The translations under genes and the position numbers were made by a program. A stretch of 60,619 nucleotides of DNA from Parcubacteria bacterium C7867-006 (GTDB lineage: Bacteria; Patescibacteriota; Minisyncoccia; Phycocordibacterales; DATDWN01), in the NCBI GenBank assembly GCA_001189155.1, contig LFCP01000001.1, positions 87,160 to 147,778 on the forward strand, read 5' to 3'. The notes under the pieces are model-generated. The model was given only the letters and a program-made list of their open reading frames with translations. It searched no databases and was not told the DNA's origin. Of this stretch, positions 16,784 through 50,458 are shown piece after piece. The first letter of the stretch is position 1. The number at the start of each line of letters is the position of its first letter.

Positions 16784-16873
16784 GGAGAGATGGATGAGTG
16801 GCTTAAATCAACGGTTTACTAAACCGTCATACCTTAATTGGTATCGCGAGTTCGAATCTCGCTCTCTCCGCCA
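16784..16873 (+). tRNA. tRNA-Ser-like, anticodon ACT
   Basis: A class II tRNA with acceptor GGAGAGA/TCTCTCC, anticodon stem ACGGT/ACCGT, loop TTACTAA (anticodon ACT), variable arm ATACC/GGTAT, T-arm GCGAG TTCGAAT CTCGC, discriminator G and an encoded CCA. Position 34 is A, where the neighbouring functional tRNA-Ser has G. It may be a real AGU-reading tRNA, an inosine-modified one or a decaying copy. A structured element repeating its 3' end follows directly. Confidence 0.85.
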
Positions 16874-16895
16874 AAATTATTGAAAATAATTTTTT
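16873..16895 (+). terminator. Terminator after tRNA-Ser(ACT)
   Basis: A 9-bp AT stem (AAAATTATT/AATAATTTT) with a 3-nt loop and trailing Ts lies between the tRNA and the structured element. It starts at the final A of the encoded CCA. Confidence 0.6.
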
Positions 16896-17026
16896 GGGTG
16901 AGAGAGTAATGTCTGGGAGACATTACGTCGAGATTCGAAGCCTTGTGATAGTTTTTTATGAGTCTACGAAATAAAAAACAGAACAAGGGTACTGAAACTG
17001 TAAGTTTCGAATCTCGTTCTCTCCGC
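16896..17026 (+). ncRNA. tRNA-adjacent structured element A
   Basis: A 131-nt non-coding element of unknown type. Helices seen: P1 16900-16905/17018-17023; P2 hairpin 16907-16914/16918-16925; P3, a perfect 11 bp, 16929-16939/17006-17016; P4 16941-16945/16984-16988; P5 16951-16959/16971-16979; P6 16994-16999/17003-17008. The 3' strand of P3 plus P1 repeats the T-arm and acceptor end of the upstream tRNA with few changes, and the 5' strand of P3 is its antisense. The core from 16987 to 17010 is identical over 24 nt to element B. It ends in TTTTACTTTTT. It is listed as ncRNA because of its folding; expression is unproven. Confidence 0.6.
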
Positions 17027-37383: not shown

Positions 37384-37518
37384 GCGCGACCGGCCGGAGT
37401 CTCGAAACTTACAGTTTCAGTACCCCAATTGGATATTTTGTTTCGCTAGCTCACAAAATATCGCAATCGGGCTTCGAGTCCGGACAAAAGCTCTCCCAGA
37501 GCTTTTTCCGTGTCACGC
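37384..37518 (-). ncRNA. tRNA-adjacent structured element B
   Basis: A 135-nt element read on the same strand as tRNA-Asp, 30 bases beyond it. Pairings (plus coordinates): P1 37512-37518/37384-37390; P2 37486-37494/37498-37506 with a three-base loop; P3 37473-37483/37394-37406 with a 2-nt bulge; P4 37464-37471/37423-37431; P5 37434-37441/37453-37460; P6 37404-37409/37413-37418. The last 15 bases repeat the tRNA-Asp 3' end (GGCCGGTCGCGC), and P3's other strand is the exact antisense of its T-arm (11 nt). The core is 24 nt identical to element A. No ORF or known RNA explains it. Confidence 0.6.
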
Positions 37519-37542: not shown

Positions 37543-37547
37543 ATTGG

Positions 37548-37621
37548 CGCGACCGGCCGGACTCGAACCGGTAACCTCTCCCGTGACAGGGGAGTGCTCT
37601 AACCAGTTGAGCTACGATCGC
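37548..37621 (-). tRNA. tRNA-Asp(GUC)
   Basis: Acceptor GCGATCG/CGGTCGC, D-arm GCTC...GAGC, anticodon stem CTCCC/GGGAG with loop CTGTCAC (GTC), T-arm ACCGG TTCGAGT CCGGC (four pairs plus one mismatch), discriminator G. CCA is not encoded. Its 3' end is repeated at the far side of element B. Confidence 0.95.
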
Positions 37622-50165: not shown

Positions 50166-50292
50166 AAAAAACCTACCACTAGGTGGCCCGAAGGCCCATA
50201 CCGGTTTCCCGATATGACGTCGTAAACGAGCCTAATGATAGGTTTTCTGTTTACGACGATTTGATGCCATGCCAGTGATTACTCACTGGTTT
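50166..50292. other. Structured non-coding region upstream of the recombinase
   Basis: The 327-base gap between the DUF4352 and recombinase genes has no credible ORF. It holds consecutive hairpins: CCACTAGGTGG, GGCC CGAA GGCC, CGG/CCG, a perfect 10-bp stem 50218-50227/50249-50258 whose loop contains CCTA...TAGG, and CCAGTGA/TCACTGG (50272-50278/50283-50289). AAAACCTA (50168-50175) can also pair with TAGGTTTT (50239-50246), competing with the local hairpin. The rest of the gap contains a CTGCATAGCTATGCAG palindrome near 50420. It could be a regulatory RNA, an att region or an origin. Confidence 0.5.
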
Positions 50293-50458
50293 AGGCACAC
50301 TTTGCTATTTAGTTGTTAATGAACATTATATTCCATTTTCCTCTCCATTCCAACCCTATCGCAGATCACTTATTTTGCTAAGACCTGACGCGAGTATGCG
50401 ACGAATCGGTAGTTCTGCATAGCTATGCAGGGATGGTGGTTCTGTCATTAATATACGT

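Follow-up and report, generated by a model that had tools for sequence, protein, structure and literature searches.

A new family of small structured elements with guides complementary to tRNA genes in Patescibacteria

We describe a previously unnamed family of small structured elements found beside transfer RNA (tRNA) genes and other conserved genes of Patescibacteria. The family came to light in a 60,619-nucleotide (nt) window of the genome of Parcubacteria bacterium C7867-006 (contig LFCP01000001.1, positions 87,160 to 147,778), where a first-pass annotation had singled out a unit downstream of tRNA-Ser(ACT), here called copy A. The elements combine a conserved fold with a guide strand of 9-11 nt that is complementary to the T-loop and T-stem of the tRNA across the point at which the gene is split (TTC|RA). 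The guide tracks the target gene, a displaced gene fragment abuts the element, and an intact gene copy is present. Several kinds of target, both orientations and tandem units occur, and the elements are patchily distributed. We give roughly even odds (probability about 0.5) to the explanation that they are small mobile elements (~95-200 nt), probably not autonomous, whose active form is a folded single strand of DNA that addresses its targets by base pairing.

Copies A and B and the extent of the family

The first-pass annotation described copy A as a 131-nt unit with defined helices and with sense and antisense copies of the tRNA end, and all of these are in the sequence. Copy B, 3' of tRNA-Asp, has the exact 24-nt core identity claimed for it, and its outer arms match tRNA-Asp. 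The features of both loci, with their positions in the window, are as follows.

16784-16873 (+): tRNA-Ser(ACT), intact host gene of copy A (ARAGORN; Rfam RF00005)
16851-16873 (+): sense copy 1 of tRNA-Ser(ACT), T-loop to 3' end
16872-16898 (+): terminator-like inverted repeat (CCAAAATTATTGAAAATAATTTTTTGG) between tRNA-Ser(ACT) and copy A, read from the sequence
16896-17026 (+): element copy A, type T1 (complete tRNA, element, 3' fragment); core 96.3 bits, E 3e-23
16900-16905 (+): copy A P1 5' strand, antisense to the tRNA acceptor end; partner strand 17018-17023
16906-16926 (+): copy A P2 hairpin, loop CTGGGAG (recurrent in many copies)
16929-16939 (+): copy A guide, the P3 5' strand CGAGATTCGAA, exact 11-nt antisense of tRNA-Ser T54-64 (TTCGAATCTCG)
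16941-16988 (+): copy A P4/P5 core hairpin, apical loop GAG...CGAA (covariation, 172 copies)
16987-17010 (+): 24-nt core GGGTACTGAAACTGTAAGTTTCGA, identical in copies A and B, includes P6
16994-16998 and 17004-17008 (+): copy A P6 strands (covariation)
17006-17026 (+): copy A sense copy 2, the displaced tRNA-Ser 3' end (T-loop to acceptor), forming the 3' strands of P3 and P1
37545-37621 (-): tRNA-Asp(GTC), intact host gene of copy B
37545-37567 (-): sense copy 1 of tRNA-Asp
37384-37518 (-): element copy B, type T1; 98.5 bits, E 7e-24
37473-37484 (-): copy B guide, antisense of tRNA-Asp TTCGAGTCCGG
37384-37406 (-): copy B sense copy 2 of the tRNA-Asp 3' end, with a 2-nt insertion, GAG[AC]TCC

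Sense copy 2 of copy A (TTCGAATCTCG/TCTCTCCGC) differs from the T-loop-to-acceptor end of tRNA-Ser(ACT) by one change, and the 2-nt insertion of copy B recurs in many other copies. A terminator-like hairpin lies between tRNA and element at both loci. The host tRNA-Ser with anticodon ACT (A34) exists beside the usual tRNA-Ser(GCT), and its TTTACTAAA loop is also found in the copies of relatives. A34 is unusual in bacterial tRNA-Ser.

About ten copies of the family are present in this 674-kb genome (coded G000; genomes carry G codes and loci L codes). The core motif, allowing up to three mismatches, was found at 8 places, and the reversed control gave 0. A covariance model built on seven copies matched 9 places with E values from 1e-10 to 1e-24. 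These lie on the tRNA strand 3' of tRNA-Ser(ACT), Asp, Arg(CCT), Leu(TAG), Leu(CAA), Leu(TAA), Asn, Lys(TTT) and Gly(TCC), and most of them match their own tRNA at the 3' end of the copy. No clear match to the own tRNA was seen in the second (tandem) copy at Leu(TAA) or in the copy at Gly(TCC). A "tRNA-Stop(tta)" that ARAGORN placed beside one locus (L090) is a mis-called tRNA-Lys(TTT).

The same model matched all 12 sampled genomes of the genus and all 17 of the family. Of 380 genomes sampled evenly across the phylum, it matched only 8 (G000 and seven others), all from one order. Scanning species genomes with a core pattern returned at least 109 further stretches. Among the matches listed, every informatively named stretch came from Patescibacteria of the Paceibacteria type, and the groups represented were Taylor-, Kaiser-, Zambryski-, Nomura-, Lloyd- and Vogelbacteria and unnamed Paceibacterota. 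The matches adjoin tRNA genes, as had been proposed: among those listed, of the 100 copies whose upstream sequence is long enough, 74 are preceded within 250 nt by a tRNA on the same strand, where a rough estimate from tRNA density puts the chance level well under 1%. The core pattern demands CGANTC after P6, which biases the scan toward tRNA-type copies and not toward tRNA proximity. The 74 tRNA-linked copies represent 29 anticodons, and most lie at one distance (anchor 80-146 nt). Among the other 26, several sit beside tRNAs that ARAGORN missed owing to introns or splitting. One copy (L079) lies 3' of a transfer-messenger RNA gene.

No Rfam family matched the element, either in the window (at the gathering threshold and at E<=5) or at the nine loci (at E<=1). 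Phage and plasmid collections contained no match, and our literature searches found no description of such elements. A core-pattern match in IMG/VR (L267) lacked the fold and was a chance hit. The observation behind the first-pass annotation is thus real and larger than first noted, and its interpretation is partly supported. The proposal of a new family with compensatory changes is upheld by the covariance-model matches, by the covariation described below and by the lack of an Rfam counterpart; none of the outcomes that the first-pass annotation had set as refuting it was observed.

Many matches fall within a few hundred bases of contig ends (e.g., G265:C2:520, G307:C3:409, G011:C39:7331/7572 and G007:C15:3427/3572), which suggests that the elements break assemblies through repeats or strain variation. 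Two near-identical copies in G281 (L081 and L084) lie between long inverted repeats.

Fold and guide strand

Copies A and B fold far better than dinucleotide shuffles on the stated strand (z of -4.6 and -5.9, respectively). Because the opposite strands do so as well (z of -6.6 and -5.9), folding energy alone does not fix the strand. Covariation was assessed among 172 non-redundant copies that were aligned without structure. G-U pairs outnumber A-C mismatches (117 versus 50), which favors a single folding strand, namely the + strand of copy A. P4 and P6 keep their pairing in 89-99% of copies and use all four Watson-Crick pairs, and P5 keeps its pairing in 79-93%. P6 is weak in the minimum-free-energy structure of copy A and is established by covariation (GAAAC/GTTTC, GATCC/GGATC and GAGTC/GACTC). 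Of the six-helix layout first drawn for copy A, P4 and P6 are borne out in this way, but P1 is not universal; copy C, 3' of tRNA-Arg, has neither P1 nor P2. The conserved elements of the fold are P2, P4/P5 and P6.

The guide is the strand just 5' of P4, and it runs antisense to the tRNA from T54 on. It matches its own tRNA over 9 nt (T54-62) in 79 of 99 distinct T1 copies, with a per-position identity of 0.91-1.00 at T54-62 and lower values beyond. Over 14 positions, guides have a mean of 11.4 matches to their own tRNA and 9.2 to swapped tRNAs (standard deviation (sd) 0.11, maximum 9.5). Guides were chosen by their T-loop-like end, so the T54-58 match is partly built in, and the variable positions 59 and 62-67 are the real test. 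Here, 4.55 of 7 positions match the own tRNA, compared with 2.44 after swapping (sd 0.12, maximum 2.93). Where sense copy 2 and the tRNA differ at positions 57-62, 28 guide positions follow the tRNA and none follows sense copy 2; some of these positions fall at the 2-nt insertion noted above, which makes their ungapped alignment uncertain. Clear substitutions in six loci (L207, L056, L097, L159, L189 and L193) also place the guide with the tRNA. In the tRNA-Asp remnant of G004, the guide CGGGACTCGAA fits that genome's own T-arm; G000 and G009 have CCGGACTCGAA. The 28:0 sites and the G004 remnant indicate that complementarity to the host tRNA is kept, not merely complementarity to the hairpin partner. 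The earlier claim that the outer part of the element tracks the neighboring tRNA around a fixed core is supported.

Cores of different types can also occupy the same locus. At tRNA-Asp, the elements of G000 and G009 (L013 and L098) have an identity of 0.97 over P1, P2 and guide and of 0.60 over the core, and the core types differ. The same trend is seen at tRNA Ala, Leu(GAG) and Val. Elements at different loci appear to exchange their cores as modules and to keep their outer arms. A further core type occurs in L012, a reverse copy upstream of tRNA-Asn. It shows a displaced tRNA-Asn 5' end, ACATTCCGCGGTA, followed by GTGAGCATGGG...CGCAAGAGCG; the 5' domain is the same, the core is different and the tRNA-antisense stretch is CCACTGAGCTAC. 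Second core types like this one are found in L030, L104, L182 and L220.

Target genes and insertion geometries

Sense copy 2 of T1 elements forms a direct repeat of the tRNA 3' end that extends from T-loop to discriminator (18-28 nt). In a second geometry (T2), the element lies between a displaced 5' gene part upstream and the intact gene downstream. For tRNA-Arg, the displaced part is 44 nt long and identical in L199, with the full tRNA 61 nt further on, and is 91% identical in L206. After P6, the T2 tRNA cases have a sense-loop-antisense arrangement (CGATTC...GAATCGAACCTG in L206) that spans GTT|CGA. Protein genes are also T2 targets, with labels that come from our reading of translations: msrA in a tandem unit (L133), tmk (L083) and a GH1-type gene (L132). 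The differences in the displaced tmk part are synonymous (MLIGITGTDGAGKG). At rplK, labeled in the same way, the element lies at the 3' end of the gene, with a displaced 3' end, in three genera.

A third geometry (T3) occurs in the ribosomal RNA (rRNA) operon spacer of G000 (L024 1380-1960, G000:C8). Two elements interrupt a tRNA-Ile that lies antisense, each at its own site, and an intact tRNA-Ile resides in the P5 loop of the second element, with 16S nearby. L141, from another species, has the same arrangement of a split tRNA-Ile and an intact one in the P5 loop. A 5S fragment is split twice in L122 with intact 5S beyond, and tRNA-Ile is split in L120 by two elements in opposite orientation. 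Copies that lie antisense to the gene they split were found for 5S rRNA, tRNA-Ile and tRNA-Pro, so both orientations exist. Tandem units are present at L046, L106 and L133. In the resolved cases, an intact gene copy lies beside the element or within its loop. The first-pass annotation had suggested an RNA element that enters tRNA 3' ends and rebuilds them. Entry with a rebuilt or intact gene agrees with this idea in spirit, and the tRNA 3' end is indeed used, but only as one of several sites; others are the 5' parts of tRNAs, 5S rRNA and either end of protein genes. In L128 (1447-2085), a tRNA-Asn with an apparent ordinary group I intron has family elements on both sides.

A mobile-element model and competing explanations

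In the model to which we give even odds, a putative protein would hold the folded single strand, whose guide would base-pair with the matching stretch of a target gene, where the strand would then be joined. The insertion would be tolerated because the unit brings or duplicates the gene part that would otherwise be lost. This logic would resemble the guide-to-cleavage-site pairing of IS200/IS605 single-strand transposons, with a longer guide. In IS608, guide sequences GL/GR located 5' to the hairpin bases pair with cleavage and target sites (PMC5934647). The element guide likewise sits directly 5' of a hairpin (P4); its pairing partners are the target tRNA and, beyond P6, sense copy 2. Like IS608, the element probably acts as a folded single strand. 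The element differs from the IS200/IS605 family in the length of its guide (9-11 nt versus 4 nt in IS608), in its complex and conserved fold and in having no transposase visible beside its copies. IS608 may serve as the closest working model; we do not claim membership in IS200/IS605. Mobility, single-stranded DNA as the acting form and a helper protein are what we infer from these patterns.

The distribution among relatives is uneven at individual loci. At tRNA-Asp, the element is present in G000 and G009, remains as a remnant in G004 and is missing from G003, G006 and G010. Five species lack it at tRNA-Ser(ACT), where G000 has it.

Several points weigh against mobility by this route. No element was seen to move, and no species yielded an exact pair of empty and occupied sites. 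Well-resolved copies are flanked by duplicated gene ends or displaced fragments, whereas classic IS200/IS605 insertion duplicates nothing. Swaps of core type with the outer arms kept are poorly explained by simple insertion, or by any explanation offered here. The element 5' end is mostly GTGAG, and in "generic" GTGAG...CGCAAGACC copies we found no clear guide, although their flanks pair better than mismatched flanks do (mean -16.9 versus -13.4). Searches by protein family for RVT_1, IS110 and tyrosine recombinases did not find a mobilizing enzyme, and Y1/HUH transposases were not searched for. No protein family recurs beside the elements except by synteny, and no Y1 HUH gene recurs beside the copies. 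RVT_1 is absent from seven genomes with elements (G000, G004, G005, G010, G265, G281 and G307). The IS110 family (PF02371) occurs in one of 26 genomes searched, which is not G000. G000 has one PF00589 (Phage_integrase) gene and element-rich relatives have 0-2, with no excess. We ruled out RVT_1, IS110 and extra integrases as general helpers in G000 since their presence is uncorrelated with elements.

Could the unit be a host RNA? Its transcript would act in cis or trans, through the guide, to mask the unit's own tRNA, mature it or degrade it, with sense copy 2 sequestering the guide as a switch or decoy. The guide stays complementary to the tRNA even where sense copy 2 has decayed, the covariation is strong and of RNA type, and the element is kept at many loci over several species (e.g., tRNA-Asn and tRNA-Ser). 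However, the interval from tRNA terminator to T1 element leaves no room for a promoter, and some copies are antisense to the gene they split, which together favor targeting at the DNA level. Close relatives carry the same tRNAs without the element, and a host RNA leaves unexplained the copies at 5S rRNA, rplK, msrA and tmk, the antisense copies, the tandem arrays and the tRNA gene in a loop. We consider this explanation unlikely. Action as an RNA, which the first-pass annotation envisaged, is not borne out, and its decoy or regulator alternative gained little positive evidence. We put just as low a likelihood on immobile units, in which tRNA ends would have been partly duplicated long ago at their own loci, with a structured core, and then kept similar within a genome by gene conversion and spread by natural transformation. 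Such a history fits outer arms that follow the locus around shared or swapped cores, as at tRNA-Asp, and elements at orthologous loci in several genera, but not the many unrelated targets, the tandem copies, single genes split by two elements or the use of both orientations.

Tyrosine-recombinase integrative elements use tRNA 3' ends and restore the gene, so their remnant attachment sites would account for the 18-28-nt direct repeat, for restored gene ends and for the small open reading frame (ORF) in some units (L140). Attachment-site remnants share no conserved covarying fold and carry no antisense guide, integrase genes are as scarce as described above, and the phage and plasmid collections are without a match, all of which makes this origin improbable. 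Least probable, in our estimate a long shot, is a new small class of self-splicing intron. In its favor, conserved sites in structured RNA genes and conserved codons are interrupted, the 5' end is mostly GTGAG and the guide spans the junction. Against it, the gene is also present intact next to the element in the well-resolved cases, so that its function does not depend on splicing. Several copies run antisense to the gene they interrupt, and none matches an Rfam intron.

We compared the family with other known systems. The repetitive extragenic palindromic (REP) sequences and bacterial interspersed mosaic elements mobilized by TnpA-REP (PMC8266576) are similarly short, numerous, palindromic, non-coding and patchy. 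The rtT repeats at E. coli tyrT also take in the last bases of the adjacent tRNA, but copies A and B have no Rfam match to rtT, which occupies one locus in E. coli compared with dozens of targets for the element. To our knowledge, REPs have neither a target-specific guide nor copies of tRNA ends, unlike the elements described here. Integron attC sites are folded single-strand recombination sites (PMC2727003), in which a hairpin with a variable apical loop recreates a double-strand site. The element resembles them in this respect and differs in its fold and conserved motifs and in an antisense arm that matches the host gene; we saw no dedicated integron integrase or PF00589 excess, and the R/L box consensus was not formally scanned. 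IS110/IS1111 bridge or seek RNAs are likewise structured RNAs with target-complementary guides, but all except one of the 26 genomes searched lack an IS110-family recombinase. Group I introns in tRNA genes share insertion at conserved tRNA sites and a guide that spans the junction; the element lacks a catalytic core and an Rfam match, and a spare gene copy exists in resolved cases. Group II introns and retroelements differ in that seven element-bearing genomes lack RVT_1. Tyrosine-integrase elements share the direct tRNA 3'-end repeat, but the element has no integrase of its own.

It is conceivable, though somewhat doubtful, that the family represents a new class of guide-addressed mobile element whose targets are essential genes, hit at conserved sites such as tRNA T-loops, and which spreads with a rescue copy of the broken gene (alongside or in the P5 loop), a natural "home-and-rescue" system with an enzyme not yet recognized. 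If the mobile-element model is true, Patescibacteria harbor widespread, overlooked insertion elements addressed by base pairing, whose address can be read from sequence as a short antisense strand. They would be natural elements that break an essential gene while carrying its repair, and their mobilizing enzyme would await discovery. If the elements are host RNAs instead, they would constitute a new class of antisense RNA directed at tRNAs, in which many individual tRNAs have a copy of their own. Either reading explains the partial 3'-end copies behind many tRNA genes of these bacteria.

Other features were recorded near elements. The family often encodes helix-turn-helix (HTH) proteins that bear a LAGLIDADG-like motif, LMLYLGEGD (L048, L134 and L148-L157), some of them less than 1 kb from elements. 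Those near L048 and L134 were rejected as helpers; such proteins occur in 11 of 17 family genomes and are absent from G000. ORF clusters near elements are merely syntenic neighbors. The window also contains a LOOT RNA (RF03000, 83 bits) at 50185-50297 (-), a known orphan structured RNA that is unrelated to the element family.
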